Assembly (NCBI GenBank): GCA_949358305.1
Contig: OX442314.1
Location: forward strand, 9,169,060 to 9,233,059
Length of the DNA stretch: 64,000 nt
Reading direction: 5' to 3'
DNA from: Strigamia acuminata
Taxonomy: Eukaryota > Arthropoda > Chilopoda > Geophilomorpha > Linotaeniidae
The notes beneath the pieces were generated by a model. The model was not told the origin of the DNA. It did not search any database and saw only the letters and a list, made by a program, of their open reading frames with translations. Positions 21,181 through 44,907 of the stretch are shown piece by piece (position 1 is the stretch's first letter; every line of letters starts with the position of its first letter). The position numbers and the translations under genes are program-made.

Positions 21181-21657
21181 TCCCAGCGAGAAAGTGTTCG
21201 CTGGGAACGACCGCACCGCCATTAGACACCGCTTCCCGACGACATCTAAAGCGATATTCTCGCCGATTCACGCCCTTCGCGAGAAGTGACGAGATTCAAC
21301 GAGGAGAGCTGCGAGGACGCACATCGCGCTGCTCGGGTGGTCGCGAAAAGGTGCGAATTTTGCAAATTAAACCTGCGACAGTGTTCGTGCAAGCTTGATC
21401 GACATTAATCAAGGTCCCGTCGAGTGTTTTCGAGGATTTCGGGAGCTGAAACGGGAAAATTTAGTGCAAGAGAAGTCGCAAAGCGAGCAACAAGTTGGGA
21501 CTTGCTTCGTTAATGCCCGCCAAAGGTGCAGCCTCTTCGTGATTGGTCCGCGCGCCGAGCCTGATATGGAAGTTGAGAGTGTGACATCATAGCAAAAACA
21601 AACAACACGCGAACCAGGTTAGCCAACTTTTCTCCTCGCAATTGTTTTCACGTTGAG
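21180..21657 (+). other. Probable 5' UTR exon of the BH3-like gene
   Basis: A GC-rich island in AT-rich surroundings starts just after the TATA box. It ends at a strong donor GAG|GTGAGT (21657/21658); a weaker alternative CAG|GTTAGC is at 21617. The acceptor of the first coding exon, TTTTAG at 22091-22095, would complete a 438-bp 5' UTR intron. Short open frames in it (for example 21132-21398 and 21395-21592) look like upstream ORFs rather than the main product. Confidence 0.5.
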
Positions 21658-22096: not shown

Positions 22097-22493
22097 ATGC
22101 AAGAAATAGAAGACGACGAAGTTTTCGAGGCCGAATCGTCCAGTCATGGGCTCTTCAACCCGTTTCCACGACCATTTGCCCACCTGCACAGCGTCGACTC
22201 CGGTTACGAAGCAATGAGGGACTACTCGCCGTACGACTCCGCCGGCCGCTCCCGGAGTCGAAGCTTTGCCGAGCGGAGCCGAGAGGCGCTCGCCGCTCGC
22301 CCGCAACAACCGACATCGGCATCGCCCGTCGAAGTCGAGGGCCGTGCACTGAGTCGGCGTGCAACCTGGCCCGAGCTGCCGGTCGACCAATCCGATGCGG
22401 AGGCCGAGCGACACCGAATTCGAACCGAATCGATGCGCTCTGTCGGCACTCAAACATCGTCCCTCGAGGGACTGAGCCTGGACGATGATGCGG
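22097..22493 (+). CDS. BMF: BH3-like gene, coding exon 1
   Basis: Acceptor TTTTAG|A, then ATG at 22097, running to GCG G|GTAAAT at 22493 (132 codons plus one base). It is GC-rich compared with its flanks and encodes the acidic N-terminus, an Arg/Ser block (RSRSRSFAERS, 51-61) and the LC8 motif. The opposite strand also carries open frames here, explained by GC-rich codon usage. Confidence 0.75.
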
Positions 22494-25400
22494 GTAAATC
22501 AATAAATTAATCATTTTTATCAACAACTTAACTTGAAATTTTGGTTTTTTTAAGTTAATTTAAAGTAAAATTTGTATTTTTAACGTTAATTTTTGCCTAA
22601 ATCAACGATTTGAACGTATCAGGTTATTTTATAATTCCGACAATAGATGGCGCTAATAGTGCAATGGCGGATAATCCTACAAGTGTTTAGCCGCGATTTA
22701 ACCTCTTTGTTCTCTGAAATTAAATGTTTCTACATCAGTTTAATCTCGTCTACACATTTTAAAATAAAGACAAGATGTTTATTTATATAATCCTTGCAAA
22801 CAATTTTTAATTATTTTAATTTTAAACCGAAATTTTACAAAAATTCATTCTCAATGGGAGAATAACATGGGGTATTTTTTAGCATGTCAAAAATTGTGAT
22901 ATTTTGGATGTTGTAGACATGAGGTGGGTAATGGGTCCATGAAACCCCCCACCACCTTTCCACCAGCTGAGTTTCCAGCTGTTTTATTGTGAGACAGGTT
23001 CTGGACTGACTGGTTAAGGGACCCCCCTCTTCCAACCCCCATTTTATAGTCTTAAAATAATTTTCTGTTTCCATCTGAATTAGGTGCAATAGCAATTCTT
23101 TGGTTGCACTGTTTTTATTTGCATTTTAGGGTTAAAAGAGCGTAAACAAATGCAATTTTTTGTGGTGTAAGAGTTGGTTTGAGGCTAAGGTTTTGGTTGG
23201 TCTTTTTTCCAGGGGCCTGGAGCCCCCCCTGCCCTCTCTGGTGGCTTGCAACACTGGTTTTGCTTTGCAGCAGCAGCCACCTCAGTCTCAGCTTGCCTCA
23301 GCTGACTTGTTGGGGTCATCAGCTGATCTGGGGTTGGCCCTGGGGTGGAGGGGTGGGGGTGGAAGCCAATGGATCAGGCAAAGAATAAATTTGTGACCCC
23401 CAGGCTACTACTGTGTCCCTGAGTTGTGGAAACATGTTTACAATTGTGTTTTTGTATTAGATTTGATATTGGTGGCGGCCATCTTGAAGGGTTTTTGGTT
23501 ACTGTGTGATATTTTTTTGTTTTTAGATTTATTTTGGGTTTGGAGATTGATTAAATTTGGGGAAAGTTGATCTTTTTTGGTTTTTTGTTTGGATTTTAGT
23601 AGGATTTTTGGATTTTATGGGGGAAAAGACTTGGATTTAGGTGTTTTTTTAGTGGATGCTAATTCTAGTGTAGTTGTGAATATATTAGTATGATTTTTTT
23701 AATTGGGAAATGGTATTTATAAACTGAACTGGAATATGGGTTCGTTTTTAAAAATCTTCATTTTTGTTTAAATATTTTACGAAAATATTAGGGAAAGATG
23801 GTTTCTAGTGTAGATTTTAACGTAGATCATGAATATCGTATCGAAATTCGTGGGGAAAACGTTAAAATTGCTGAAAAATGAACAAAATTGAGAAGCACGG
23901 GAAACCCACGGTAACCATTAGCGAATACTAATTCCAGCGTAATTGTGAATAGATTACTATGGTTTTACCCACACACAACTGAACTGGAAACCGGGATAAT
24001 TTATAAAAATCTCTATTTTTCCTTAAATATTTCAAGAAAATACCCGAAAAAGACTCTTTCTAGTGGAGATTTTAACGTAGATCACGAATATCGTATCGAA
24101 ATTCGGCGGAAAAACGTCCAAATCGCCGAAAAATGACCAAAACCGACACCTATTGGTTAATAAGTTCATAATTCTGCCACCGGGATTGATTTTTCTTTTA
24201 TGGGACTTGTTCCAGTCGCTAAGAGATCAATCACGGTAGCCATATTGAAAGTTTATCTATTTTTCTTTTTTCTTTTCGTTTTGTTTATACATAAAACTTG
24301 ACGAACAAGTACGTTTTAAATAATTCATTTAATAGACGACAGCGCCACCGTGCGGATATAAAATTTCACTTTTATCTTTGTTTTTATAACCCACTAGTAA
24401 TTTTGCATGTTTATGAAGCTAATTCCGTTTTTCCCCGCCGTAAAACCACGTATAAAGCGAAAACGGATGAATTTATTTTTGGATGTTATGTGTGTCGTAT
24501 GGCGGGATGACCGGAGCGGGAGAAAAGTTGGGGCTAACAATGTTTCAAAGAGAGACCAATGGTCAGATAAGTTGCGAGTCGAGAGCGGCATTTCTGCCAC
24601 TTGGATGGGTTTGAATACCGCGACCCAAACATGCGTTAGGGCTATTAAAATGGGATTTATTGTTTGTATAAACAATAAATTGTGGAGTTTGGATTTTTTG
24701 GGGAATGGAGAAGAGTTTTTTATTTTTTTTATTATTATTTTTTTTTAATTTGAGGGATTTTTTGGGTTGATTTTTGTTTTAGGGATTTGGGGGATGATGT
24801 TTGGGTGATTTTTTTGGGGATTTTATGGTGGTTTTGGAGGGATTTTAGACATTATTGGAGCTTTTTATTAAATTTGAAGGAATTTTAGACTTTTTTTGGT
24901 ATTTTTATGAAAGTTTGGAGGAATTTTAGACTTTTTTTGGTATTTTTATGAAAGTTTGGAGGAATTTTAGACTTTTTTTGGTATTTTTATAAAAGTTTGG
25001 AGAAATTTTAGACTCTTTTTGGTATTTTTTATGAAAGTTTGGAGGAATTTTAGACATTTTATGAAAGTTTGGAGGAATTTTAGACATTTTATGAAAGTTT
25101 GGAGGAATTTTAGACATTTTATGAAAGTTTGGAGGAATTTTAGACATCTTATGAAAATTTGGACAGATTTTAGAAATTTTATGAAAGTTTTGAGGAATTT
25201 TAGACATTTTAGACATTTTATGAAAATTTGGACATATTTTAAACATTTTATGAAAGTTTGGAGGAATTTTAGACATTTTATGAAAGTTTGGAGGAACTTT
25301 AGACATCTTATGAAAATTTGGACAGATTTTAGAAATTTTATGAAAGTTTTGAGGAATTTTAGACATTTTAGACATTTTATGAAAATTTGGACATATTTTA

Positions 25401-28400
25401 AACATTTTATGAAAGTTTGGAGGAATTTTAGACATTTTATGAAAGTTTCGACAATTTAAAACAATTTTAGTCATTCTTACGAACATATTTTAGACAATTT
25501 TCGGCAAATCTTTAAAAAAAATAATAACAATTCTTCAACCCCTTTGATCACTCCAAACGATAGAAAAAAGCGAATAATAACAATAATAATAAAAAAAAAG
25601 AAGTAAAAAGTGTGAGCGGAAAAGTTTGTACCTTCTTCCCCTCGTCGACTTCCGTACGTTGGCGAAATTCGACGTAAATCGAGTCGTCGCGCGGCAAACA
25701 TCGCAATGGAGCCAAAAGGGTAACGAAGCGCAGCCCCACGTGCTAAAAACGACTCCGACAAGAAGTTGAGTGTAAAACTACGGAAGCCGAGAAGCCATAA
25801 AAAAGCGCCGTGGTATGATAATTATTACGCGCGTTCATTTTCCCGCATGCGGACGCCATTAAAGTATGTTTTTCATTTTTTAAAGACGACGGGGAGATGA
25901 GATTCAATTGTAGATGAATCTAATGAATACAAAGTGATTTTGAGTGCGCTGCGCTGCACTGCACTTGGTTGGGCTGCGCTGCATTGCTCGGCGCGTTTTT
26001 GATGGTTGTTTAAGTCGCTGTTGGTTCATTGGAGTGAAAAAGTTGGTGTGAGAAATTTGTTTGTGTTTTGCATAATGTTGTGTGGGTTGTAGTTAGGGTT
26101 GTTTCTCGGTGTTGGGTTTTTTTTGGATGTTGTCCAGATTGGTTTTTTTTTTGGTTTTGTTTTGTTTTGGATGGTTTGGTTGGAGGTTGAGTTGGGGAGT
26201 GATTGGATTTATTGGGAAATTGATGGAAATTGAAGGAAATTGGAGGAATTTGATGGAATTTGAAGGAATTGAGGGAAATTGAAGGAATTTGATGGAATTT
26301 GAAGGAATTTGAGGGAAATTAAAGAAATTTAAAGAAAGTTAAGGAACATTTTGGAAAAATTGAAGGAATTTGAGGAAAGTGTTTGGAAAATTTGAAAAAA
26401 AATTTGGAAAATTTGGAAAAAAAAATTGGAAAATTTGAAGAAAAAAAATTTGAAAATTTGAAAAAGAAAATTTGGAAAATTTGAAAAAAAATTTGAAAAT
26501 TTGAAATTAAAAATTTGGAAAATTTGAAATTAAAAATTTTGAAAATTTGAAATTAAAAATTTGGAAAATTTGAAATTAAAAATTTGGAAAATTTGAAATT
26601 AAAAATTTGGAAAATTTGAAATTAAAAATTTGGAAAATTTGAAATTAAAAATTTGGAAAATTTGAAATTAAAAATTTGGAAAATTTGAAAAAAAATTAGA
26701 AAATTTGAAAAACATTTTGGATAATTTAAGAAAAATATGGAAAACTGAAGGAAAATGTGGAAAAGTGAAAAAAAATTAGTAGAAAAATTTGACAACTCAA
26801 GAACAATTTGATAAAATTATGAAAAATTTGATAAAATCAAGAAAATTTGATAAAATCAAGAAAAATTTGATAAAACCAAGAAAAATTTGATAAAATCAAG
26901 AAAAATTTGATAAAATCTAGAAAAATTAGATAAAATCAAGAAAATTTGATAAAATCAAGAAAAATTTGATAAAACCAAGAAAAATTTGATAAAATTAAGA
27001 AAAATTTGATAAAATCAAGAAAAATGTGATAAAATTAAGAAAAATTTGATAAAATCAAGAAAAATTTGATAAAATCAAGAAAAATTTGATAAAATTAAGA
27101 AAAATTTGATAAAATCAAGAAAAATTTGATAAAACCAAGAAAAATTTGATAAATTCAAGAAAAATTTGATAAACTCAGGAAAAATGCAAAAAACTCAAGA
27201 AAAATTATCAAAATTGAAAAAAAATCAAATTTTATTGAGAAACCTCAAAGAACCATCAAAAAATCTAAATATTTTCATTTTAAAAAAAATTGAAATTTGA
27301 AGAAACGGAAAAACAATTGTAATTGAATGTGAATTTGCGTTTGCAAGTTGTTGCTGCAAGAAGTGAGGGCAAGAAACTGAAAGGATTATTATTTTTGACA
27401 CTTGAGTACATTTTACTAGGCATTTTGGGCAGCCATGCAGAAAATGATGTTAAAAATATCGCTCTATCAATCTGTTTAAACAAACTAGGTCGTAAACATT
27501 TTTTCAATTACATTTAGTTACACGGGTAACTTGAGGAATTTCGTGTGTCACTGCAGAGTTTGCTCGGTGATTCATCGTGCTTGACTCACAAGACAACGAG
27601 CCAAAGCACCTAACCCTATTTTCACAGAATTTATCTGCGTTTTGAATCTTATATTCTGCAAGATGATTTCTGCAAATGGCCACGCGAACAGAAAAAAATT
27701 AATTTTTTACATTGAAGAAATATATTTTTGCACAAAATGTTTTATTTCTAATTTTTTTTTTTTTTTTTTTACAATATTTTTTATTTTTGCATAAAAAAAT
27801 TTATTTTTTTTCAAAATATTTTATTTTTTACATAGAAGTTAATTTTTTAACTTGAAAATCTCTAAAAAATTTAATTTTTATCTTAAAAAATCTCTAAAAA
27901 ATTTAATTTTTATTTTAAAAAATCTCTAAAATCTTAAATTGTATTTTGAAAATTTACAAAAATCTCAAAATCTTAATTTTTGCCTTGAAAATTAACAAAA
28001 ATCTCTAAAAATCTCAATTTTACCTTGAAAATCTCTAAAAATCTCAATTTTTACCTTGAAAATCTCTAAAAATCTCAATTTTTACCTTGAAAATCTTTAA
28101 AAATCTCAATTTTTACCTTGAAAATCTCTAAAAATCTCAATTTTACCTTGAAAATCTCTAAAAATTTCAATTTTTATCTTGAAAATCTCTAAAAATCTCA
28201 ATTTTTACCTTGGAAATCTATAAAAATCTTAATTTGTGCCTTGAAAATTTACAAAAATCTCCAAAAATCTAAATTTTTAATTTGAAAATTTCTAAAAATC
28301 TCAATTTTTACCTTGAAAATCTCTAAAAATCTTAATTTGTGCCTTGAAAATTTACAAAAATCTCTAAAAATCTCAATTTTACCTTTAAAAACCTCCAATT

Positions 28401-31400
28401 TCCCTTCAACTTACACACGACAAGCAGCTTAAAAAGCACTTTCCAGTGTTTAAAACACTCTTCAATCCAAACGACTTTAATAAACTCCACCTAGCAAGAC
28501 ACACACAACTCGATCACTAATTCCAATCATCATTTTTTCATCAAAATCCAACCCGACGGCTGCAAATTTTCATTTCAGAACCAATTTATCTCCCATAAAC
28601 CCAAGCAGAAAATAGAATACCAACGAAAAAATCGTCCCTCACGTTCCACCCAGCTCATTTGTTACTCCCCGCATCCAGCCCGTGTGTCAACTCACTCCCG
28701 TTCCATGTACAGCGGATGTCCCACTCGTGTTCGCAGATGAAGACAAACGACGGAGTGATGGGCGCATAATACACTCTCCCCGCCATGATTAATGACGTCA
28801 CAGAGGCATTTCTCAAATGAGAATTTGTCGGCCCGATTGGATTCGCCCGCCATCGGACGTGGGTTGCCTAGCAACCGGATGCTGAGCACGAGAAGAAGAG
28901 GATATGCAGTCGCATCGTCGGGCTTAAATCAAAGGAAGAAGCGCAAATCCTTTCGCGGGCATGTGCGAGGCGATAAGAGGTTGCTTGAAATTGGCCGCTG
29001 CAAAGCCCGGGCTCGATGCTTCGCGCCGTTCGCCGCTTACCCCTTTAATCCTCTTCCGAGTCGATGACCACTGGGCAGTTGAATCGGAGCCACCTGTGTG
29101 CGCGCAGAATTTGATCCTTAAAGTGATAAATGCTTCCCATTTGTTCATCCTGTTCCACTCTAGTTCATCCTTGGACTTGACACAATTTGCCCGTGTTAAT
29201 GTGATGAATCGGTGGAGAGGAGAGCGGGATTGAATGATTTGCAAATTCCATTTACAAGTTTAGAGTCCCTGGTCAAAAGAGGATTTGCTTCGGAACGGTG
29301 ATTCAACTACGGGTGTAACTTTTGTTTAGTTTGTGCCCGATATCTTGATGGTAAATTCATACGGTGCATTCCATTTTGGGGGGCTGATTTCCTAATTGCA
29401 CAATAATGCTAGAATAAAGTAAATAAACAGCAAAGAAATACAGAAACAAAGTATTGCTCCGTAAGTCAAGCTGAAGGTGTATGGAGTAAAGCCGAAGGGG
29501 TACGGAGTAAAGCCGAAGGGGTATGGAGTTAAGCCGAAGGGGTACGGAGTTAAGCCGAAGGGGTACAGAGTAAAGCCAAAGGTATATTGAGAAAAGCCGA
29601 AGGGGTACGGAGTAAAGCCAAAGGTATACTGAGTAAAGCCGAAGGGGTACGGAGTAAAGCCAAAGGTATATTGAGTAAAGCCAAAGGTATATTGAGTATA
29701 TTAGTAAAGCCAAAGGGAAATTGAGTAAAGCCGAAGGTCTACAGAGTAAAGCCGAAGGGGTACGGAGTAAAGCCGAAGGAGTATGGAGTAAAGCCGAAGG
29801 AGTATGGAGTAAAGCCGAAGGAGTATGGAGTAAAGCCGAAAGGGTACAGCATAAAGCCGAAGGAGTAGGGAGGAAAGCCGAAAGGGTACGGAGTTAAGCC
29901 GAAGGGGTATGGCATAAAGCCAAAGGGGTACGGAGTAGAGCCGAAGGATATGGAGTAAAGCCGAGAGGGTACGGAGTTAAGCCGAAGGGGTACGGAGTAA
30001 AGCCGAAGGGGTACGGAGTTAAGCCGAAGGGGTACGGAGTAAAGCCGAAGGGGTACGGAGTAAAGCCGAAGGGGTACGGCGTAAAGCCGAAGGGGTACGG
30101 CGTAAAGCCGAAGCGGTACGGCATAAAGCCAAAGGTGTACGGAGTAAAGCCGAATTGGTACGGAATAAAGCCGAAGTCATATGGTATTCACACATTTGAC
30201 TGGACGAAAAAGCAAAATTGTAATTGCTGACAAAAATGGCAGTTTTGAATAAGAGTCGCGGCTCTTAATCGATAATATACGGTATTTTAAATCGGAAGAA
30301 TGTGATAAACGGTTGGGTTTCCCAGGAGATCACCCTTCCGACTACTGATCGGCTTGGTGAGCCCGAGTCATTTTGTTTCTAATAAAACAATGAAAAGAGA
30401 GAACGATCAAGCCAGCGTGTAGTATGTTCATATGGGAATGTTCATCCAGATAAATGATTTCGTCAATCTATCTCAGTGTATCTCTCAACCAATCACGGTG
30501 TGTCATGAAAATAATACGTTTACGTCAGACATGACTGTAGCCAGGTAGGGGGCCTGCCTATGATCTTGGCTTAGGGGCCCGCTATGGAAGACTTGCCTGG
30601 TGTTGATGTCTGAACAATAACTGCATGATGTCTGATTTCTAAGCATTTTCTATGCGCCATCTGGTGTTAAATTAATTAATCATTTGTTATAATGGCGAAA
30701 AAAAGGGTCGAATTGAGGTTAAATGATATCAATGAAAGGATGAGGGTACAGACGTCAATTTGTTAGGATTGCCCGGGATTCTAACTGCCAATTGGTCTCA
30801 TTGCCTGGGATTAAATTGTTCAGCATGCAACGCATCATGGCCGGGGCGAGATAGGTTTCAATTTTGCCACCAGGTGCGTGTAGATAAAACACATTTAAAA
30901 AATTGGAAAGGAAAAAAAATACGATGATTGCTCATGTTTTGTAACATGCAGTTAATGATGGCATCAGGGGTCACGGAATCGTGTCATCGTGCATGGAAAA
31001 GACAAAATGGATGTGCAGAACAACACAGACAAATGAAGGCGTTGAGAAAAAAATTCACTTGTGTCTGTGGGTGTCTAATTTTGAATTATTAATCAAGATT
31101 CATCATCCGGGACACACTCACTCGATTAAACCGAGTGGATTTATCTTGATAATTTTTTTTTTTTTTTTTTTTTGGTAAAAACATGTCCCATTTGCTGTAA
31201 TTTGCTAATAAGGTGCTCTAAGATTGTATCATTTGTCATTATAATGTTGTTTTTTTGTGTGTGGGTGTCGGCCATTTTGGTAATGAAGTTTTGACGTGAG
31301 TGCGGAGTTAATATGAAACGTGAAGGGAAAGGATTCTTTATTTTTTAAAATGAGTCAGTCATTAGGTTGGTAATGGCGGCGAGCGTAGTGTCGGGCTGCG

Positions 31401-33418
31401 GTGCGCATGCGCAATGGTTGTTATTAGACGTGAATGAGGAAGCTGGTGTTTGATGAACGAGAGTTTATCGTTGTTTTTTATTTAGAATTTAATATTAAAT
31501 TAATTATGGTGAAATTTGATTATTTATTTTGTGTAAAATGTTAAAAGATGTTGTGGGTAATGATGACGATGCGGCGGTTGGGAAAATGGCCGCCATTGTT
31601 GTTCGTTTGCCGGTGCGGGAAATCTTTTCGCTTTTTCGACGGTTTGGACGATTGGATGTGGAAAATTGTGTAGACCTGAGGTTATATAAATGTAGAATCT
31701 CGAATTTTATTACATAAAAATGGAATTTAAAGTTCGAAAATAAATTTCGCGAGCCGAAATTGAACAATTGTCAAATTTTTTCTTTTAATTTATTTAATTT
31801 TTATTGTTTCTAGACGACGACGACGACGACGATAATGTGTTCAGCCCGTCTTCTACCGTGGGTTCCACGGGGCCTTTACCGGACGTGATCCAGCCTATGA
31901 ACGAGCGAAGGCATTCGCTGGACGGCTCGGCCCTTCAAAACCTCGGCCGCAATTTAAGGGACCTGGCGGACAGCTTCCGAGCTAGAAGCGAGGAGCAAAG
32001 GGCTTCTATTGGTCGCAGACGTACGTGGAGTCTACAGGTTAGACCTCGGTTTTTTTCAATGCTGGTTCATACTTTTGTCTAATGAAGAAAATTTAAAAAA
32101 AAAAATTTATATATTTTTTTTCCCTCCTCCATTTTGTTTTTTCCCCATTTTGTTACAATGAAAAAAAAAATCAACGAATTGAATAAATATTTACATATTT
32201 ATTTACAATTTTTCTTGAAACATTAATTAGTGCAAAGTCAAAGTCAAGCCAAGTGTAACCAGCGTGACTCACCTGTTGAAAGGAAAAGAGAACTTCCTCC
32301 ACTCCACTCCAACTTGATATACAATGACTAATGGAGGCAAAGATCAGTTTAAATGACCCTCAATATCCCCCCATATAACTCCATTGTTCAATGGAGTGTG
32401 CAAATTCACACCTGGTGCAACAGCAAATTGTCAACACTTGTCTCTCCCCATCACAAATTACTAATTTGAATCCAACTGGGTGTTTACCTGCACCCACTAA
32501 TCTCTTGCAGAGTGTCACATGGTGTGGGTGGGGGTGGGGGTGGGGGGGATTGGATATTCATTACTTTAGCATTAAAAGTCGTCCCTTTTGCAATCACTTT
32601 TTTAAGCTTTCGGTCAATAATTGTGGGGTTAATGGAGCTTTATTTAATTCTGGGGAAATCAGCTGGGAAAGTATGGGTAATTTGATAGATGGAGTGACTT
32701 CCGGTTGGGTTTAAAGTTGGATGGTCAGTGGAGATGGGCTGGGATGGAGTAATAAAGTTGTTTAGTTTCATTTTAATAGAAATTGAATGTTGGAGAGGTT
32801 TTTAAGCTTTTGGGATGGTTTTTTGATGGGATTTCTTTCTCGGCTTTGCATTTGCATCGGATTTTTCGGGTTTCTTGCGATTCGTTATAACGAGGTTCGA
32901 CTGTATTGGAAATGCAAAAAAATTGGGGTGGAAAAGTGCGGTGTATTTGCATCACAAGGAATTGTGCAGGTTTAAGGACTTGGAAAGTTACATTGTATGT
33001 CAGAGAGCGGCCCTTTGTCCATAGATGGGTCGCCGTTACAAATAAATACATACATGTATGTCAGAGAGGCTGTTTTGCAGGTGCAGGCAAAAGATGGCGC
33101 CATTTGGTTAGGGAAACAAGATGGTGGCCTGATTGCCCATCCATCTCACCCACTTGCTCGTGCAAATACCGGTTTGATTTAATAACAGTATATATACAGG
33201 ATTTATCTTAAAATTTCCTTTCCATATCTCCACCTGTCTTTTATTTATTTATTTGTTTATTTTTTTTTTCTTTTTCCGTTGAAAAATTTAATGGATTCAT
33301 ATCTAAAGTAGAAAGCTGAAATTATAGGTTGACTTTTTTAGGGGGTAATTTTTGTTATCAAGTCCTTGACTCTTTACTTGATGATACATAAAATTTAAAA
33401 AGTTTTTTTTTTTTTCTT

Positions 33419-33450
<32 letters not shown>

Positions 33451-36400
33451 TGTGCAATAAAAAAAAAAATTGGTAATTGCACCTGCACCTGTGTTTTATT
33501 TTCTCTGCGTATATTTTTCTTTTTACAATGCATGCAGAAAAACAAGGGAGTTGTAATAAATAAAAAAAAAGCGGAGAAATTGGACACAGGTGATTTTTTC
33601 TTTCGGCTTCTGACATTAATGTTTGATGAATTAGTTGAAACTATTGTGCACTGGATTCATTATTGATGAGTTTGTAGTAGTGCATTTGCTCACTAGACGA
33701 CGCCCTCTTCGATTTGCACTGCAGGGGAGCCACCTGGAACGATTAGAGCAGGGGTAGCGAGGCACAAGGGGTGGGTGTTGGTTTCCTGAGTTCCATTCTG
33801 TGAGTTTGAATGGACATGATTGCAAAGCGGAGGGCGGATGTTCACAAGACGCAACACAAGTTTGGCCAATTAGCCATTTTTGATGTCAATCATAAGTTTG
33901 GAATGTGAGGCGAGATGGAAATTCCGCTTGAGTTTCGACTTGATTGCCGAAGGAAGGAGGGTGGGGGGATTGGAGATGCAGGAAGTGTGATGGAAAAGGC
34001 AGAGGGGGTAATGCAAGTGGTCTAAAAAGTTGGGGTTTGGGTTTTTTGTTGTTTAATATGAGGAAATGTTTGCGAAAATGGTGGTGGGTAATTAGGAGAA
34101 ACTGGGGAGGGAATACGCGGGGTGTTCTGTTCTGGAGTTGTCGGCGGAGACCGGTAGCTGGAGAGCATTTGCTTCTTTGGGGATGGATGCAGGGCCCGGG
34201 GACCATGTATGTTAGATCTAATGTTATGCCTTGTTTACACTTGAACCACTTACCGTATATTTGTAAATAGCGCACCCGTGCGCAATTAGAAAAAAAATAT
34301 TTTGACCCGCGCGCTATTTAAACCTAGCATCGGTAATTTTCTGCTGAAACGTATGCAAAACGTGTCATTTGTCATCCTTTTTTTGGCACATTTCGGGCCT
34401 CCAATTGTGTACCCGCGCGCAATTCGAGGTCTGCGGGCTATTAGTGGCCCGCGTAGTAATCGATAATATACGATATGTAGAAGTTGTGACGCTTTTGGTA
34501 TGAGCATTCAGTAGGTGTGTTCAATTTGAAATCGATAAACTGATTCTCTCGATTGCCTCGCAAAACGCATTTTTTAGAATTGGATTATTGCAAAATTAGG
34601 GGCGGGATTTGCAGAACTTGATTTCAGAACACGTAAGTCATAACTGCGCGTGCGCAAGATTTACTCGAGTCGACTCGTTCAAAGTCGAAAAGTGAATCAA
34701 GTTTTTCTAATCGGTTTTTCACAATTTGAAATTGAACGCACCTATAATGTCAGTCGCTTTAGCGCTTTCCTTGTTTTGTCAGTTTTCAAGGCAGGAAATG
34801 ACGTTGTTTTGATGGAAAGTCTAGTCTAGACGAGCCATGAAAAGTGGCTAAGCAAGGAAGTCTGGTGTATAGTGAAATATTGAACGCATCTATTGTATTG
34901 CAGTCTGGACACCATCGAGTCTAAAGGAAACCGTCTGTTTTAGGCGGTGTTTAGTTGGGTCTAGCTAGCTTAGCTTCTCCCTATAGCTTGCACAATGGTT
35001 TGGGGGAAGATAAATGGGCAAATGTTTTGCATATGTTAAGGTTGTGGGATGATGTATTGACACCACGCAGAAACTGATGCAATCATAAATGTTACAACAG
35101 AGCTTCCATATTTTCCCCTATGGAAATGGTTGGCCAGAAGATGGTTTTTGGTCACTTTCTTTTTGTTTGTTTGTTGGTTTGTGGGCACATGTGGGAAATG
35201 TGCACTTTCTCTATTATCACGCTTTTAATAATCTCGGATTTAAACTGCAACAATCTGTGTGTCAGTTTGGCTCGGTTTTGATATCAGATATCAGTTTAGT
35301 GTTTACAGTTATTACAGCAAACTCGAAACGAATAAATCTTATCTCTATCACAACAAACACAGAAATGCTTTAAAAGTTATTAAAGTTTCATACAGGAGCA
35401 CATGAAAGTTTGAACAAATTGAATCCACTCGAAGATGACAAACATGGACAAAGTGGAAAGTTGGAGAATAAAAAAAATAAAAATAAAAATTATTTAGACA
35501 ATAATAACTCATTACATGGGTCAATAAAAGAGAGTAATAACAGTAATTCATTGGATAAGAATTTGCAAAGAGAGGTAGTAGAGGAGAAAAGTCATAAAAG
35601 TTGACATGTTGGCAAGTATAACAACAGATGCCCTTTTGTTATTAGTGGCCTTTTAATGTATTTATTTATAAAAGAAGAGTCTCCATAAAAGCATTTCAAG
35701 TACTTAATTCTTGTGTAATGAGCTGTTAAGACTATAGCAGCTCATTTTTTCTTCTCTGCCTCTCATTTTTATGATTGCCACCTGGTGGAAAGCTCAACAC
35801 TGCTGGATTGTGAAGCAACATAATAGCAGGAATTATTAGTCACACTCTGATAAGATCAAAATGCATGGGCTGGGGTCAGCTGATAAAGTGAGCAGCACCC
35901 ATCATGCACTGAGGTGTTTATTCTCATTAAACTGTATAGGGCCCAGTGATTCTCCAGGCATGGAGCCACCACTCAGGACCTGCTAATTGATGGCTAAGGT
36001 GCATTACATTAATCTAATCAACTTTTATGAGCCCACTTTTCTTGTTTCATTTACACTGAAAGTGTTTTCTTGTCCACTGCTAGAGAAGGGTCATTTTAAC
36101 TTGATCAGGTGAAATTAGTTTGATATTTTAACTTGTTTGGCTTCGGTCCAACTCCGCTCGAGCGAATCTCCTAAAGTTGTCGAACGGAACGTCGGAAGTT
36201 TGCCGGGCCAAAAGTATAAGTAGCCGGAACAAGCGACATCTGTATTGGGTGACCACCTGTCTAAAAGCACGGTTTATCCAATTTGTAGCCGGTGGCCGAT
36301 ATTCGGTTGCCGATTATCGGTATCGGCGATACTGCAAAATATCGATATCGGTCAAAGTCTAGTCTTACCCTGGTTTTTTTTTTACTGTATTTCTACGGAA

Positions 36401-39400
36401 GTCCCATTGGACTATGTATATTTTTTGCAAATATAGCACACGGGTGCGCAATTAACGGTACAGTTGGCACTTGAATTCTCATGCTGAGGTGGTGCTGAGA
36501 AAGGCCAGACATTTGTATTGGCGGGAAATTCACTTAGGATGATAAAAGGTTGGAGTTAATTGGAAATTGGATCACGTGGATGCGTGCAACTGTGGATGTG
36601 GGTCAGTGACATGAGAAAGTTGTCTTGACTCGTGGCTTGTTGAAGACGTGCTGAGTTCCATTAAATGTTATTGTGCAATAAAGAAAACACTGCAATATTA
36701 AAATGTAACCTGAAACTTTGACCTAGAAGCACTGACTGTGCTGGAGACTGCAGATTTGAATAAAGTGTGTGTGTTTTGCAATTATTTGATTTCTTCAACA
36801 TTGTTTTGCATTGGTGTTTTGGAATTAGGATTCTAAATATAGGCAGTTTGTAAGTGCACAGTTTTAATGGGTGCAAGGGTCTTCTGATACAGGCAGAATT
36901 CCCAGGGAAGTTCCAAAGTTCTTCACCTCGGGTCAACTTTTGTTTACAAGATGAAGTTTCAATTCAAAACTTGTTGCCATACATGGAAAAAGCAACAATT
37001 TGAATCAATTTTTATTATCCCAAGAAACTAAACTATATATCAACTATACCTGGTAAACAGCTGCACGCACACTTTGGAGTATCAACGATGAATCAGCAAC
37101 AATAAATAGAAATTCTCTGGTATAGAAAAAAATTAGTTAAACGCATCACAGAGTCTGTTTACACTGTAGGGCATGTGTGAACAGAGCTGAAACAATTGAT
37201 GTTGCGTCTGGTCAATCAGATGGTTTCAATTAAACCTGGAATTGGATCTAGTTCTAGAAATAGTTCCAGAATCCGTAAATGGCGGCCTGTTTGCATGTGG
37301 CAAAGTCTCGCCAACCAAACGTGAATCGACGAGAGTTGGAGTCGATCTAGATTGAAGGCCGCAAGACCTTGCGTTGCGTCGCGTACCTCAACTTGGAGTC
37401 GAAGCAGGAATTGGCGTCAACGTCAAGAATTTTTGGACGCAAGCAGCTTGCGTTGCGTCAGTTTTCTTGCGTTGCGTCTAGTGTGGGCGCAAGTGTGAAC
37501 CTATAGCTTTAAGACGAGCAAGTGTTCACGCTTGAACGACTTTTCTACAAACCCCACCCACTTTTAGAAAGTCTTGTGTTCACACTTGTTCCAGTTTTCT
37601 ACAACTCAGAACGTTAAGCGAGATCTTGTACAACGAGGGATACATTCTGCAAGGTATAGACGGTGATAAAACGACAAAGTGCAAGATGACCTCTAGTGGA
37701 CTGTAGGTGCTCGTACGTAGACGAGATTGGCGCAAAAGAGCTGTGACGAATTTGGCGCGAGGTCGGGAGAAATCGAAGAGAGTTATCGGTAGTTTTAGCT
37801 GGAACGATTCCCTCATTTACTGTACTTGGTTATAGCGTTGTAGGAGCTGACAGCTGGCGTGGAATCAAAGTGAGCTATAAATGCCAGCGTGCAATGGCTT
37901 TCCGATAATAGTTTGTCGTCTATGTTTGAGCTGGGGGCCGCCATTGCTCCGCCTATTGTCACCGCCGCCGAGTGGTGGTTGGTGGCATTTGCAGTCAGTG
38001 ATCGGAGCGTCTTTTATAGTTCATAAAGCGCAGTGGCCAGTTTCGTTCATGAAATTTGCTCATAAAACATGGCACTAAATTTTCTTTTACGACTCGCTGT
38101 GGCTCCGAACATGTGTAAAAATAATTGTTTATACAAAGTGACCTCTGGAGTCAAAAGACGAAAAACTGAGTATTAAATGATAGCTCACTTCCTATTATTA
38201 GGAGTTTTTCAACAAATTGCAATGTAATAATAAGAATAAACAGAGAAAATTTATTACTTCCAAATATTGCCAAGAGGGGATGTAAATGTTGGAATTTAAT
38301 ACCTGATTTGGCCACTAGGATGAAAATATTGGAATTTAATACCTCTTTTGGCCACTAGGATGTAAATATTGTTATTAAATACTTGATTTGGCAACTAGGG
38401 AATTATCTATTGGTATTTAATACCTGATTTGGCCACTAGGTTGTCAATATTAGTGTTTAATACCTGCTTTAGCCACTAGGTTGAAAATATTGGAATTTAA
38501 TACCTGATTTGGCCACTAGGAATCAACTTTATTGAATTTTTGACATTTTTGGATCCATCTGGTGACAAAATATTCCAAAATTTTATTATTTTGTATAAAA
38601 TGGCTGATTTTGATTTCATTTGGATCCATCTGGTGAGAAAATATCCCAAAATTTTATTATTTTGTATAAAATGGCTGATTTTGATTAAATTGGAGTCGCC
38701 TGGTGGCAATTTTTTTTTTTTTTTTGGAAAGTTTTTTTTTATTTTACTTTGATTTTATTTTGTTGACCGTTAGGTTTTGGGAGAAGCGTGACCAAAGGTC
38801 AACCCATAGGGGGCGGTGGAGGGAGAGGGTGGTCGATGTCGCCATGGCACTTGTAAACACTCGAGCAATTTCCGGTAGGACGTTTTATTAGCTCAACTAA
38901 TAAAACATTTTATTGGAATCTTGATCTAACCCTTTTGATGAATATGCAAATAAGATCGACAAGAACAATTACAAAAGCGAATCGGGGCCTTCGAGGAAAT
39001 TTGACGAGTCGACATACTTGAACCTTAATTTGATGCCCGATTCCTGGAACTCGAGTCACCATAAATCCACCAAATCTCCCCCACCACCCACCCTTCCACC
39101 CCTCGTGACGAAATTCAGTGACCAAACACGATTTGCAAATTTTTTCAAAACAGACGGTAATTGCATTTTTCCAGGCGGAGCACGCTCCACTTGGTGCGGC
39201 ATGCGCGCCGCATTATTCCCGTGAAACGTCGAATTTTTATATTTTCTAAAAACCGACGGTAAATTGAATTTTCCCAGGCGGCGCACGGTCGCTGTGGTGC
39301 GGCATCCGAGCGGACGAATCCCCGTCGACTCGAAATTTATGAAAATAGAATTAAATTAGATTTTTCTTTTTATTTATTTTTTAAACAACACAAACCTCAG

Positions 39401-42400
39401 GCGTCTGTGGGTCCAGTCAGGCTCATTTACTGCACTTAGACCTGTAATTGGTGGTTGGGTCCACGAGTGAGTGGTGGCCTGTGGGGATCTCTCCAATGAC
39501 GTAATTAAAATATTACCAACCCATAGGAAACCACCAGCCGACACACCCCTTAAACTCTTAGTCCAAGGCCAACGACGCTTTTACAAACCACTTTTCCGAG
39601 TTTAGAAAAAAAAATGGCGGATCCGCCATTTTTTTTTTTTTTAATAAAAAATAATTTTTTATCTTTTTTTTTTTTTGGTTAAAGTTTGATGAAATTTGTG
39701 GTTTTTTTTTTAGTGGGTTCGTTATAACGAGGTTTTTGTGATTTTCGTGCAACAAAATGTCGTTTTATTTTTTTTCCGCAGTTGATCCATCATGGAGGTG
39801 AAAGAAGGGTGTTTTGGGGCAAGTTGAGGTGTCTTGCCTGGGGCAGGGGTGGAGCTGAGTGCCCAGATGCCTCGCAGCTGTGGCTGGACCAAAGTTTATT
39901 GCTATGAAAACAAAAGAAATTGATAAATGAAGGTGATGGGGTCAGTGAGTCGTGACGTCATTTGAACTGATATATTTCGTCTTGATTGTGTGGTGGGTAA
40001 AGGTGGTGTGTAAAGAGGTCGACGATTTATGGAAGATATTGTAAATGAATTTAAAACGGAGGTTTTTGGGGTGCGTTTTTTTTTGTGTGGTTTTTTTGTG
40101 GGTTTGCTGTGGTTTGTGGAGAGATAAAAATAGGCTGCAGTCGAAGTAATCGTTTTAATGGTGTTTTGGGTTTTTTAAATTATTATTTTTTGTGTTTTAA
40201 GAGTGTTTTGGGTTGTTTTAAGAGTGTTTTTGGATGTTTAGAGGATTTTTGTGGTTGTTTTAAGAGTTTTGTTAGTTGTTTTAAGAGTTTTGTTGGCTGT
40301 TTTAAGAGTTTTTTGGTTGTTTTAAGTGTTTTAAGAGTGTTTCTGGTTGTTTTAAGGATTTTAAAGGTCATGGGAAGAGAAAAATAAAAATTGAGGAGAA
40401 GATTGTTTGTGTCATTATTAGACCAAATCCATTGTTGAAACGTGTTCAATTGTTTCGAGAGTGTTATATCGTTTGTTTAAACGTTTGAAAATTCTCAAAT
40501 GTCCTCCATTTTTAGTTTTCGAAAGTTTCCAAAAGTTGCCGTTGGTGGCGCTATTTATGACGTCATCGGCGACAAACAAGCAGCTTTTTAGCATGGGCTT
40601 GGCTTCATTTAAGAGCTACGAAATTTTTTTTCTAAATTTGACAACACTGTTAGGTTATTGGGATTTTAATATTCAGTAAATATTCCAATTTGCTATTTGT
40701 TGCAAGTGTATAGGTTCAAAAGAACTAATACTAAATTTTCGTAGCTCTTAAATGAAGCCAAGCCCATGCTAAAAAGCTGCTTGTTTGTCGCCGATGACGT
40801 CATAAATAGCGCCACCAACGGCAACTTTTGGAAACTTTCGAAAACTAAAAATGGAGGACATTTGAGAATTTTCAAACGTTTAAACGAACGATATAACACT
40901 CTCGAAACAATTGAACACGTTTCAACAATGGATTTGGTCTAATAATGACACAAACAATCTTCTCCTCAATTTTTATTTTTCTCTTCCCATGACCTTTAAG
41001 GTTACTTTTTGGTCGTTTTAAGGGTTTTAAGGTTACTTTTTGGTTGTTTTAAGGATTTTAGGATTAGTTTGTGGTTGTTTTAAGAGTGTTGTTGATTGTT
41101 TTAAGAGTGTTTGAAGAGTATTTTTGGTTGTTTTAAGAGTGTTTTTGGTTGTTTTAAGAGTGTTTTTGGTTGTTTTGAGTGTTTTAAGAGTGTTTCTGGT
41201 TGTTTTAAGGGTTTTAGGATTAGTTTGTGGTTGTTTTATGTGTTTTAAGAGTGTTGTTTTAACTGTCATAGTGTTTTTGTTAGTTTTAAAAGACTATCTA
41301 ATACAGTTGTGTTTGTTTTCTTAGGTACTTCATTGTTTGTGTTTTGCTGTGTTTCAAATACAAACACAAGCAGAAATAACAAAAACAAAAAACAATCTTC
41401 AGAAACACTTAAAACACAAGACTTTGTCAATTTATCCCACCTCGTTTTAACCAAAAAAAAACAAAAACACAACAAAAAAAAACAGAAAACATCAATCCAA
41501 ACAACGAAAACATATTTTTTTGGTTTATTTCCGTTTTAACCACAACAGAGACCGCATCCTCCGCCTCCCCATCCCCAAGTGTGCAATTAAAACGGGTTTC
41601 CTTGAAAATAAGCCTAAATGTGCCAGTTGGGCTCAATTGGTGCATTACACGAGCAGAAGCTGAGTTTGGACATGCCCACACTTGGCTCGCCTCCCTCAAA
41701 TCTTCCACCTGCATCCCACTGGTCCCTCCCCACCCCCAAACTCGTGAGTCACCCACACACAACAATGAGGGGGGGTTCATGGGAAATTGGGAACAGCCTA
41801 ACTGGTCTATTATGAAGAGACTAAGAAAGAGGGTGGGGTGGCGAGTCGTGGGGGTTGACACTCGAAATGTAGTGCTACCCCCACCTTTTTGGTTTTTACC
41901 CCCTACTCACTTTTCCCAGGCTCCTTCAGTTTGCAGGTGCCATCTGTTTGGTTTATCAGTTGTTTGACGTGTTTATGAGGGTATAAACAGGGGAGGGTTG
42001 TGACGTCATATATTGTCGTCATTTTGTGGGGGTTTAGGTTGTTTGGGTTTGGGATTTTGGGTTGACGTGTGATTGCCGGTTTAATACCCGGAGATTTAAT
42101 TAAAACGGAACGGAAAGTTAAAACGAAACGGAAAAATGATTAAAATGGAACGGAAAAATAATTAAAATGGAACAGAAAATTGATTAAAACGGAACGGAAA
42201 ATTAATTAAAATGGAACGGAAAAATAATTAAAGTGGAACAGAAAATTGATTAAAACGGAACGGAAAATTAATTAAAACGGACGGAACATTAAAACGAAAC
42301 GGAAAATTAATTAAATTGGAGAAGCAAATTAATTAAAACTGAACGGAAAATTAAAAAAAACGGAAATTTAATTTCAACGGAACGGAAAATTAAAACGAAA

Positions 42401-44907
42401 CGGAAAAATAATTAAAATGGAACGGAAAATAAATTAAAATGGAACAGAAAATTGATTAAAACGAAACGGAAAATTAATTAAATTGGAGAGGAAAATTAAT
42501 TAAAACGGAACGGAAAATTAAAAAAACGGAAAATTAATTTAAACGCAACGGAAAGTAAAACAAAACGGAAAATTAAAAAAAAAAACGGAAAATTAATTTA
42601 AACGGAACGGAAAAATAAAACGAAACGGAAAGTAAAACAAAACGGAAAATTAAAATAAAACGGAAAATTAAAATTAGACGGAAAATTAAAATTTAACGGA
42701 AAATTAAAATAAAACGGAAAATTAAAATAAAACGGAAAATTAAAACGAACGGAAAATTAAAACGAACGGAACAGAAAGATTAAAACGAAACGGAAAATTA
42801 AAACGAAATGGAGAATTAAAACGAAATTCAAACGGAATTTAAAACAAAATCAACTTAAAACGAAATCAACTTAAAAACAAATTTAAAACGAAACAAACTC
42901 AAAACGTGTTTCCAAATTTTAATACGGAGTAATTTTTTTAAACAGATTTCAAAAAAAAAAATAAACCAAAGAAAAAATTAAAGATTATTATTTGCTTAAT
43001 AACCGTCATTTAAAACAAAACTGCCATCACTCATTAGCCAAAAACCATTTAATAAACATCAGCGCTGTAAACCGAACCCGTTCACGACGTCACCGGCTCA
43101 CCGCCCGCGTGCAGCGATGCGCGAATTGATAAACCGACGATAAAAATCGCGAGACGAATGACCGCAGGTGAGACGAGCGAGACAACAGGTGCAAGAAGAC
43201 ATTTTTCACAGTAAAACATGTAATTGCTTCACCCCTTTACGGCCATTAGTCTAATTAATAAAATTGCCCGTCAATTCGTTTGCTTTCTTTGCACAACTTT
43301 TGCCACTTTCCGCCGCTTGGAAATTGTTTTGCACACGCGACTGGACTCGACAACTCTAATAAAAGGATTAGCAAGTGGAATATGTACAATTTGAAGGCTG
43401 TCGAGCGGTGATAAATGGCTGCGCGTTGCCATTTCGGGCGTTCCAAATCTCTTTTGTGATTTGGAAGATTTGCCGATTTGGAAAATTTGCAATTAATTTT
43501 TAATTTTTTTTTTGGATTTTGCCACCAGTTGGAGCTGTTTTGAGTGTTTTGAGTGATTGTTGGGGTTTTTGTTTTGGTTTGTTGAGTTTTTTGGAATTTT
43601 TGAGTGATGTTGTTATAGCGAGGGTTTTGTTTGTTTGGGGTTTGCGTGGATGGAGAATGGATTGTTTGAGGGAGGTACGAGTTGAGTGTTGGATGTGCGA
43701 TGACGTAATTTGTTGTGGTGCTTTGAAAGGAGGAAATCCGCAGGGAAACGGAAGCATCGGATGTTGAAAATGAGTTTTGTAGCGTTTTAACACCTGTGGG
43801 TTGGTTGTTTGCATGGATTTGTCATTTTTTTAACTTTTTTTAATTTTTTTTTATTATTTAAATTTTTTTTAAACTTTTTTTTTTTTTTTAAATTTTTTAA
43901 AAATTTTTTTTTTATTTAAATTTTTTTTTTTTTGTTTTGGATTGGTGTTTGTTGGAATAAATTAGTGTCAATCATTGTCATTTTAAAGGAAGAAAAAAGA
44001 AAAAGTTAGATGGTTTAATTGATTAATTGGATGATTTGCAATTAGTAAATCTTGATTTTATAAAAATAGTGCAATTTGATGCAAATGAGATTTTTCTGGA
44101 GGGTAATATATTTTTTATATGTAAAAATTGTACATTTTCATGTAAAAAATGTACATTTTCATGTAAAAAATGTACATTTCCATGCAAAAAATGTATATTT
44201 CCATGCAAAAATAATAAATTTCCATGCAAAAATAATAAATTTCCATGCAAAAATAATAAATTTCCATGCAAAATAATAAATTTTAATGCCAAATGATAAA
44301 TTTCCATGCAAATTAATCAATTTCCATGCAAAAATGATAAATTTATTTGCAAAACTAATACGTTTCAATGTAAAAATATAAATTTCCATGTAAAATGGTC
44401 AATTCCCATGCAAAAATAATGAATCTTCCATGCAAAATAATAAATTTTCTTGCAAAATAATAAATTTTTATGCAAAATAATAAATTTCCATGCAAAAATG
44501 ATAAATTTATTTGCAAAACTAATACGTTTCAATGTAAAAATATAAATTTTCATGCAAAATAATAAATTTCCATGTAAAATGATAAATTCTCATGCACAAA
44601 TGATAAATTCCCATGCAAAAATTAAAATTCCCCATGCAAAATTCATAATTCTCCATGCAAAACTCACAATCTTCCACGCAATGATGATTTGCAATTCCCA
44701 ACCAAAACACTCAACTCCCAACGAATCCACAAACCCGTAAAAACACAACCTCGTTACAACGAACCCCAAAAACAAAAAACTCCCAAACAAACCACCCAAC
44801 AAAAATCCCTAATAAACCCCAAACCCACCCCTCCATCTCCACTTTCCACCCCCTCCCCTCGTCCCCAGGTGACCATCGCCTTCTACCAGAACGGGCAAAC
44901 AGTTTAA
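22097..44907 (+). CDS. BMF: BH3-only apoptosis regulator, Bmf-like (3 coding exons, 219 aa)
   Basis: Exons 22097-22493, 31814-32037 and 44869-44907 (TAA) join in frame to 219 residues. The N-terminus MQEIEDDEVFEAESS resembles the acidic start of vertebrate Bmf (ELEDDVFQPEDGE). SVGTQTSS at 115-122 matches the LC8/dynein-light-chain-binding KxTQT motif present in Bim and Bmf. A BH3-like amphipathic helix, LQNLGRNLRDLADSFRAR (173-190), shows the spaced hydrophobics L176, L180, L183, F187 and the A184-D185 small-acidic pair. The C-terminus after R202 (TWSLQVTIAFYQNGQ) recalls the short hydrophobic tail of Bmf. The expected role is a pro-apoptotic sensor held on the cytoskeleton through LC8 that binds Bcl-2-family grooves. 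Three RRx[ST] sites (T90, S167, T203) could be phosphorylated. The D-tract at the start of exon 2 is low complexity. Order and spacing of four features support the call; no alignment was run, and exon 3 is short. Confidence 0.65.
23650..24135. repeat. Degenerate direct duplication, unit about 270 bp
   Basis: Two diverged copies in tandem. Both run from ATNCTAATTC-AGNGTA, through AACTGAACTGGAA, to GATTTTAACGTAGATCA and GAATATCGTATCGAAATTCG. Copy 1 is about 23650-23880 and copy 2 about 23922-24135. Probably a repeated non-coding segment; no protein recognised. Confidence 0.6.
24845..25450. repeat. Minisatellite of about 30-bp units, open on both strands
   Basis: About 19 copies of GAAAGTTTGGAGGAATTTTA followed by GACATTTTAT, with a higher-order block of roughly 130 bases duplicated. 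Because the unit is a multiple of three, both strands remain open (repeats of VWRNFRHFMK on +, NFHKMSKIPP on -). This is a repeat, not a gene. Confidence 0.9.
25632..25742 (-). CDS. Possible internal exon of a nested antisense gene
   Basis: Thirty-seven open codons between a good acceptor (CGTTTTTAG at the - strand side) and a donor AAG|GTACAA. The peptide (LAPLRCLPRDDSIYVEFRQR in its middle) has protein-like composition and the DNA is GC-rich relative to its flanks. Entry and exit are both phase 0. It could belong to the nested gene beginning at 28786, but that exon ends in phase 1, so another exon would have to intervene. Function unknown. Confidence 0.3.
26205..27200. repeat. Two adjacent AT-rich minisatellites
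   Basis: At 26205-26790 an irregular array of GGAAATTGAAGGAATTTGA passes into a 21-bp array near AAAATTTGAAATTAAAAATT. At 26800-27200 there is a regular 20-bp array near GAAAAATTTGATAAAATCAA with about 20 copies. Confidence 0.9.
27845..28390. repeat. About 31-bp minisatellite
   Basis: About 17 copies of a unit joining CTCAATTTTTACCTTGAAAA and TCTCTAAAAAT, with variant units containing GTGCC and TTTACA. Lies just downstream (in antisense terms) of the nested exon. Confidence 0.9.
28696..28786 (-). CDS. First coding exon of a nested antisense gene (partial)
   Basis: ATG at 28786 (context AATCATGG) opens 30 codons, MAGRVYYAPI followed by TPSFVFICEHEWDIRCTWNG, ending GGG A|GTGAGT, a strong donor in phase 1. 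The composition (aromatics, two tryptophans, two cysteines, no low complexity) is typical of real protein and the segment is GC-rich relative to the intron around it. An overlapping frame (28889-28692) is longer but would ignore this donor. Upstream lie a CRE and a palindromic X-box. I do not recognise the protein. Later exons must lie at lower coordinates within the host intron; the candidate at 25632-25742 does not join directly. Confidence 0.5.
28793..28800. promoter_or_regulatory. Perfect CRE palindrome TGACGTCA
   Basis: The full cAMP-response element (CREB/ATF site) lies seven bases upstream of the ATG of the nested antisense exon, so it would be promoter-proximal or in the 5' UTR. Confidence 0.5.
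28863..28875. promoter_or_regulatory. Palindromic RFX X-box GTTGCCTAGCAAC
   Basis: The sequence matches the RFX consensus (RYYNYY, short spacer, RRNRAC) as a near-perfect inverted repeat. It stands 77 bases upstream of the nested antisense start codon, the usual position of X-boxes in ciliary gene promoters. Confidence 0.55.
29455..30185. repeat. 21-bp minisatellite, about 34 copies
   Basis: Unit near GAGTAAAGCCGAAGGGGTAC plus G. Variants include GAGTT, AAAGGTATATT and GGAGTATG. The 21-bp period keeps frames open on the - strand (TPYPFGF repeated every seven residues). It is followed by AATAAGAGTCGCGGCTCTTA (30241-30265), a transposon-end-like palindrome also seen near 1.5 and 2.45 kb. Confidence 0.9.
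30315..30370 (-). repeat. 5S rRNA-like fragment (SINE or pseudogene)
   Basis: On the - strand it reads AAGCCGATCAGTAGTCGGAA, GGGTGATCTCCTGGGAAACC, resembling the 3' half of 5S rRNA (GTCAGTACTTGGATGGGTGACC..CTGGGAA). A related fragment is at 46137-46180. Confidence 0.45.
31814..32037 (+). CDS. BMF: BH3-like gene, coding exon 2 (BH3 helix)
   Basis: Acceptor TTTCTAG|AC completes a split Asp codon. The exon ends CTA CAG|GTTAGA. An alternative, stronger-looking donor GAC|GTACGT lies 17 bases upstream at about 32020 and would change phase and the C-terminus. It encodes the Asp tract, a Ser/Pro linker, MNERRHSLDG, the BH3-like helix and the basic RRRTWS segment. GC-rich relative to its flanks. Confidence 0.7.
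34251..34478. mobile_element. Probable MITE with CGTATATT ends
   Basis: Left end ACCGTATATTTGTAAATAGC and, reversed, right end near CGATAATATACGATATG share a CGTATATT core, with GCGCGCAATT words inside both halves. Related end fragments occur at about 30266-30285 and 36412-36462. The duplication is not clear. Confidence 0.4.
34514..34742. mobile_element. TA-flanked MITE, ends GGTGYGTTCAATTT
   Basis: Starts GGTGTGTTCAATTTGAAAT after TA (34512-34513) and ends ATTTGAAATTGAACGCACC before TA (34743-34744). A similar end (GAACGCATCTAT) recurs at about 34882-34893. TA duplication suggests the Tc1/mariner group. Confidence 0.55.
38270..38700. repeat. Two medium-length tandem arrays
   Basis: Five to six copies of a unit containing GGAATTTAATACCTGATTTG and GCCACTAGG (38270-38520), then two to three copies of a roughly 80-bp unit containing TTTGGATCCATCTGGTGA (38540-38700). 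Confidence 0.8.
40195..40364. repeat. GTTTTAAGAGTGTTTTTGGTT minisatellite, split by a foldback element
   Basis: Degenerate copies of a roughly 21-30-bp unit. The same repeat resumes at 41000-41265, so the TTAA-flanked element between them inserted into it. Confidence 0.75.
40365..40995. mobile_element. TTAA-flanked foldback element (631 bp, 259-bp inverted arms)
   Basis: Left arm 40365-40623 and right arm 40737-40995 are near-identical inverted repeats (one difference seen: CGTTTG versus CGTTCG), beginning AGGTCATGGGAAGAG, with a spacer of about 113 bp. TTAA stands on both sides (40361-40364 and 40996-40999). Both arms yield the same short open frame, so that frame is not a gene. The arms carry TGACGTCA at 40558 and 40795. 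High arm identity suggests recent insertion or conversion. TTAA flanks suggest a piggyBac-type mobiliser. Confidence 0.8.
42085..42900. repeat. AAAACGGAACGGAAAATTAATT array
   Basis: An irregular array of units of 11-22 bp based on AAAACGGAACGGAAAATTA, long enough to dominate 800 bp of the host intron. Unit length varies more than in the other minisatellites. Confidence 0.85.
44105..44670. repeat. AAAATAATAAATTTCCATGC minisatellite
   Basis: About 27 copies of a unit of 18-22 bp with internal duplication of a larger block (the words ATTTGCAAAACTAATACGTT occur twice). It ends about 200 bases before coding exon 3 of the BH3-like gene. Confidence 0.9.
44869..44907 (+). CDS. BMF: BH3-like gene, coding exon 3 (C-terminus)
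   Basis: A long pyrimidine tract ends CCCCAG|GTG, followed by 12 codons, VTIAFYQNGQTV, and TAA at 44905-44907. Phase 0 matches exon 2. The excellent acceptor and the sense of the peptide beside TWSLQ support it, but an exon this short 12.8 kb away is not certain. Confidence 0.5.
   Translation: MTIAFYQNGQTV

Follow-up and report, generated by a model that had tools for sequence, protein, structure and literature searches.

A candidate BH3-only gene with an LC8-type motif in the centipede Strigamia acuminata

The closest described systems are Bmf (Pfam PF15185) and Bim (PF08945, PF06773). In Bmf, an acidic start, a TQT motif and a BH3 motif follow one another in that order, while in Bim the TQT and the BH3 are encoded by separate exons, as passages of PMC4695108 describe. 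The defining BH3 residues of Bmf are Ile133, Leu137, Ile140, Asp142 and Phe144, and an arginine in BH1 of Bcl-xL pairs with the BH3 aspartate (both from portions of PMC12811263). For other lineages, passages of PMC8998228 place BH3-only proteins in C. elegans and report none in other nematode branches or insects, and add that cross-searches within protostomes failed. Passages of PMC7022251 state that no BH3-only protein was found in Drosophila and ascribe the three-part mechanism to lophotrochozoans, 'in contrast to ecdysozoans'. Excerpts of PMC10107002 present sayonara (CG14044) as the first BH3-only protein in Drosophila, and Bcl-2 and Bax have been described in a tick (PMC8336254, in excerpt). 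Sayonara was the only arthropod BH3-only protein found in open-licence PMC papers, and no arthropod example of a BH3-only protein with an LC8-type motif came up in that collection, both as far as the partial texts go. No paper on BH3 with Bcl-2 in myriapods was found among open-licence PMC papers, and those on 'bcl-2-modifying factor' and insects yielded no insect Bmf gene by their titles and the starts of their abstracts. Here we describe a locus in a geophilomorph centipede whose predicted product is a credible, well-formed candidate for a BH3-only protein of a myriapod. The product carries an LC8-type motif, and genes for its would-be partners are found in the same genome.

Gene model and predicted product

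The window, the whole stretch of 64,000 nucleotides that was analysed, lies on chromosome 1 (C1) of Strigamia acuminata (Table 1), in agreement with the initial annotation, which had placed a Bmf-like gene of three exons in an apparent invertebrate. The exon coordinates, splice sites and 219-residue product of joined exons 1, 2 and 3 that it proposed are all present in the sequence, as is the acidic start of the product. No stop interrupts exon 1 or exon 2 in its frame, and their G+C contents at codon positions 1/2/3 are 0.69/0.53/0.65 and 0.59/0.50/0.65, respectively, compared with 0.62 at the third position of four conserved exons (367 codons) from the same genome. Exon 1 is likewise open in one antisense frame, so its openness alone is little proof. 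An aspartate run spans the junction between the two exons, which look like parts of one gene.

Table 1 Features of the candidate gene (positions in the window unless a chromosome is given)
Feature	Position	Strand	Remarks
Window studied	C1:9,169,060-9,233,059		Strigamia acuminata chromosome 1 (centipede, Geophilomorpha)
Possible 5' untranslated exon	21180..21657	+	start guessed; donor GAG/GTGAGTGG at 21657
5' junction acceptor	before 22096	+	..TTTTAG; pyrimidine tract weak, 0.55
Start codon ATG	22097	+	acidic N-terminus MQEIEDDEVFE
Coding exon 1	22097..22493	+	residues 1-132 and first base of codon 133; acidic N-terminus, TQT
TQT, LC8-type motif	22448..22456	+	residues 118-120, context RSVGTQTSS
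Exon 1 donor	after 22493	+	CGG/GTAAATCA
Coding exon 2	31814..32037	+	encodes an acidic run and the BH3 helix; reading phase continues from exon 1
Exon 2 acceptor; donor	31814; 32037	+	..TTTCTAG; CAG/GTTAGACC
Predicted helix	31924..32007	+	residues 170-197; AlphaFold2, exon 2 reading, helix 38-65 of piece
BH3 core LGRNLRDLADSF	31942..31977	+	residues 176-187; 16.8 bits; strict pattern unique in six frames
Alternative 3' end, exon 2 read-through	32038..32082	+	tail VRPRFFSMLVHTFV, stop at 32,080-32,082
AATAAA	32182	+	downstream of read-through stop of exon 2
Putative exon 3	44869..44907	+	VTIAFYQNGQTV and stop; acceptor 12.8 kb downstream, pyrimidine fraction 0.91

The 3' end is less clear. Between 32.06 and 44.9 kb, only two acceptors of the [CT]AG type have a pyrimidine fraction of at least 0.86, the best at 44,869 and the other at 41,920. 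This measure is no proof of exon 3, because on the same scale the exon 2 acceptor reaches 0.77 and that of the 5' junction 0.55. The third exon and the 12.8-kb intron before it, as initially proposed, come down to a single good-looking acceptor 12.8 kb away and are doubtful, and read-through of exon 2 to its own stop is also possible. The short hydrophobic C-terminus that had been attributed to the protein depends on this putative exon and is unconfirmed for that reason; its peptide VTIAFYQNGQTV is weakly hydrophobic. Two bases past the exon 3 stop, at 44909-44921 on the plus strand, stands an exact copy of CCACCAGGGGGCG, a sequence that resembles the core of the CTCF site and of which none of 100 shuffles contained a copy even at one mismatch; this G+C-rich stretch may be a regulatory element rather than an exon.

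The surroundings are repeat-laden. Dense, mostly A+T-rich tandem arrays extend over 388-63763 (68 overlapping rows at a score of at least 150); many of them have repeat units of about 20, 30-31 or 40-41 bases. Upstream of the gene, on the minus strand, lie two pieces resembling protein kinase exons (8769-8975 and 10420-10617; Pkinase 0.013 and 5e-6, both below the Pfam cut-off). An Rfam scan found nothing in the window, and TTAGG repeats stand at the start of C1.

The 219-residue product matched no Pfam family at E up to 10, and its pieces matched none, the Bim models PF08945 and PF06773 included; neither the full protein nor the BH3 piece had a Bcl-2-family match in the PDB; the one PDB match of each was unrelated and weak (E 0.41 and 0.81, respectively). 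Searches of the whole genome (237,517,015 bases in 157 contigs; C1, 66,985,994 bases) gave no match to PF15185 and two sub-threshold matches to PF08945, both outside the window. The BH3-region peptide matched only itself in its own genome. Four genomic matches of the product query (E 1.2e-4 to 7.6e-4) rested on an acidic run and were set aside as low complexity. They fall in an open frame that recurs in at least four places, is 943-1,014 residues long and carries an acidic run GLSIDDNGDDEDDDDSMF; it is possibly a mobile element.

AlphaFold2 was run in single-sequence mode on the exon 1 reading and on the exon 2 read-through. The exon 2 model had a mean pLDDT of 63; over the BH3 the block values were 87 and 76, and the read-through tail formed a weak helix. 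The exon 1 model, also with a mean of 63 and with no residue reaching 90, had short low-confidence helices at 33-41, 57-66 and 98-115. These models are weak evidence for a mostly disordered product with one predicted BH3 helix.

The BH3 and TQT motifs and their likeness to known proteins

The predicted helix with an Ala-Asp pair that had been read as a BH3 is present, and LGRNLRDLADSF agrees with the BH3 consensus at all of its defining positions, with four hydrophobic positions, the small residue and the aspartate. Its key residues L176, L180, L183, D185 and F187 have the same spacing as those of Bmf. The strict BH3 pattern arose in 35 of 200,000 shuffles of the product and a looser core in 754, and in the six frames of the window the strict pattern occurs once and the looser one five times, one of these spanning a stop. 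By a profile built from 11 human BH3s, the window BH3 scored 16.8 bits, within the range of the human BH3s when each was left out in turn (8.2 to 25.7 bits; Bid 16.3, Noxa 16.9, Bmf 19.4). It ranked first among the 54,950 stop-free 16-mers of the window (runner-up, 12.0 bits), and its score, with the aspartate present, was reached in none of 20,000 shuffles and at none of 2,000,000 random positions. The exact chance of 16.8 bits is 6.0e-7 per 16-mer at average composition, which corresponds to about 4 chance BH3s of this score per proteome of an assumed 6.75 million residues, rising to 8 at this protein's own composition and to 21 at one like that of coiled coils. Among the 178,567 16-mers of 200 kb from this genome, one, lacking the aspartate, outscored the window BH3. 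Given these expectations and this higher 16-mer, the BH3 motif alone is not decisive genome-wide.

The TQT that had been noted at residues 118-120 is also present, N-terminal to the BH3 and in the exon preceding the BH3 exon, as in Bim. As a predicted LC8-type motif it is weak by itself: a TQT occurred in 4,099 of 200,000 shuffles of the product (about 2%), and the six frames of the window contain 18 instances of the pattern [KRSTVIA]xTQT, one of which spans a stop. A TQT followed by the looser BH3 was found in 14 of 200,000 shuffles and a TQT followed by the strict BH3 in only one; for a BH3 of this score plus a TQT, we put the number expected by chance in a genome at 0.1 to 0.4. With the BH3 consensus fitted and other Bcl-2 homology domains not detected, as in Bmf, the product is probably of the BH3-only type that had been proposed.

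We aligned the product with human Bmf and Bim and scored the local alignments against shuffles (5,000 per segment, 2,000 for full length). Human Bmf matched PF15185 at 3.4e-58, human Bim matched its models strongly, and the Bmf LC8 motif DKATQT agreed letter for letter with PDB 7cnu. The BH3 of the window protein was matched by 7/5,000 shuffles against Bmf and by 59/5,000 against Bim, and the Bmf BH3 IARKLQCIADQF shares with it both the Ala-Asp pair and the Phe, while Bim shares the BH3 spacing but has Gly-Asp in place of Ala-Asp. The N-terminus, compared with the acidic segment of Bmf (EELEDDVF), was matched by 24/5,000 shuffles, a suggestive likeness, but in an alignment with one gap and a segment chosen after the fact, and the TQT region by 140/5,000. 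The lysine of the KxTQT of Bmf is missing here (VGTQT). The C-terminus was at chance (2,522/5,000) and the full length near it, with 337 of 2,000 shuffles as good for Bmf and 1,843 of 2,000 for Bim; the likeness of the DSGY segment to Bim was also at chance (1,870/5,000). BLASTP against human Bmf gave five pieces, the best of low complexity (E 0.12) and the next a 14-residue BH3 stretch (36%, E 0.35), and BLASTP against human Bim gave no BH3 match.

The acidic start, the TQT and the BH3 stand in the order that the initial annotation had likened to Bmf; the C-terminus does not resemble that of Bmf. Of the profiles searched, the human BH3 profile gave a score like those of Bid and Noxa, and the Pfam BMF and Bim models found no match. 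The identification as Bmf could not be upheld, PF15185 having no match in product or genome and the full length standing near chance. The protein appears to be built like Bim and Bmf and descent from the same gene is possible, judged from sequence, but the name Bmf is premature. Sayonara, reported as a BH3-only protein of an arthropod, differs: passages of PMC10107002, in which TQT is not mentioned, describe it as a coiled-coil member of PTHR21974 and trace the origin of its BH3 to within the Diptera.

By core identity, a closer likeness was found within the centipede itself. One of its genes, Bax-like L010, has a BH3 (RLGKDLRVLADQFAQS, 13.2 bits by the human profile) in the exon preceding its BH1-BH2 exon, whereas no Bcl-2 fold was detected in the window gene. 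Its core LGKDLRVLADQF is identical to LGRNLRDLADSF at 8 of 12 residues, compared with 5, 5 and 1 for the other three BH3s of the centipede and at most 6 for the 11 human BH3s (Bmf 5). None of the 55 human BH3 pairs and 91 of 200,000 column-resampled BH3-like peptides reached this identity, for which the effective chance, as the best of four comparators, is about 0.002. By BLOSUM62 the likeness is moderate, since the score of 36 was reached by 1,919 of 200,000 resampled peptides and by 2 of 55 human pairs (37 and 36). Such a likeness would be expected of two peptides adapted to one and the same groove, or of a BH3 exon that came from a Bax-like gene.

Partner genes and competing explanations

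A genome search with PF00452 gave six matches, all above the cut-off. One member per type was compared with the PDB, giving best matches of 2.3e-19 for Bcl-xL-like L008, 1.1e-11 for Bax-like L010 and 2.6e-24 for Bok-like L007, and the other three were assigned by eye. Where the arginine of Bcl-xL pairs with the BH3 aspartate, BH1 has an arginine in the Bcl-xL-like and Bax-like types and a lysine in the Bok-like one. A canonical LC8 gene is present (E 1e-41), together with a second match that contains a stop, and CARD has three matches in the genome. Among the assignments by eye, L011 (C1:51116737-51116946, minus strand) repeats the BH1-BH2 exon of L010 almost identically and may be a partial duplicate, because the upstream bases examined contain no BH3 exon. 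A third Bax-like stretch, L012 (C4:18858430-18858648, plus strand), has an in-frame TGA and adjoins the Bcl-xL-like L009.

Exons 1 and 2 are open, the two motifs stand in the Bim/Bmf order, a helix is predicted, and genes of all partner types are present in the genome. We think that the locus is probably a centipede gene, present in one copy, whose BH3-only product is intrinsically disordered and acts as an LC8-tethered death trigger; expression, binding, tethering and killing are inferred. By analogy with Bim and Bmf, the TQT would in healthy cells dock on an LC8 dimer and keep the protein on motor complexes, and stress would release it. The BH3 helix (L176, L180, L183, D185, F187) would then enter the groove of the centipede Bcl-xL-like protein, with its aspartate pairing with the BH1 arginine, and the Bax-like protein would be freed or directly activated to permeabilise mitochondria.

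The commonness of TQT, the lack of a family match and the 4 to 21 such BH3 scores expected per assumed proteome would suit a disordered LC8 client with another role, in which the match of a short amphipathic helix to the BH3 consensus is accidental. We hold this to be clearly unlikely in view of the single shuffle in 200,000 with a TQT and the strict BH3, the eight identities with the centipede's own Bax-like BH3, and the shortness of a protein in which other domains were not detected. That exons 1 and 2 are separate G+C-rich stretches, open by chance in a repeat-laden A+T-rich region, is very improbable: the open antisense frame of exon 1 and an intron full of tandem arrays speak for it, but within this reading the G+C content varies over the codon positions as in coding sequence, the splice sites keep the phase, and the aspartate run lies on either side of the junction. 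Another reading concerns origin and overlaps the death-trigger explanation on function, namely that the protein is BH3-only but unrelated to Bmf, its BH3 exon coming from a Bax-like gene and its Bmf likeness being convergent. The higher core identity to the Bax-like BH3 than to any of the 11 human BH3s points that way, as do the C-terminus and full length being unlike Bmf; the resemblance to Bmf of the N-terminus, TQT region and BH3, in the same order, and the unexceptional BLOSUM62 likeness to the Bax-like BH3 point the other way, and we regard this origin as somewhat unlikely.

A bolder reading, which we hold to be somewhat unlikely, is that an LC8-tethered BH3-only gene of the Bim/Bmf type dates back to the bilaterian ancestor and has persisted in centipedes. 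If it was kept there beside Bcl-xL-like, Bax-like and Bok-like genes, the reduced switch of flies would therefore be a loss and not the arthropod condition. The BH3-only candidate and a Bcl-2-family partner from the same centipede form a directly testable protein pair. A BH3-only protein tethered to the cytoskeleton, in a myriapod that has Bcl-xL-, Bax- and Bok-like genes as well, would point to a three-part switch of the vertebrate style as the ancestral state of arthropods.
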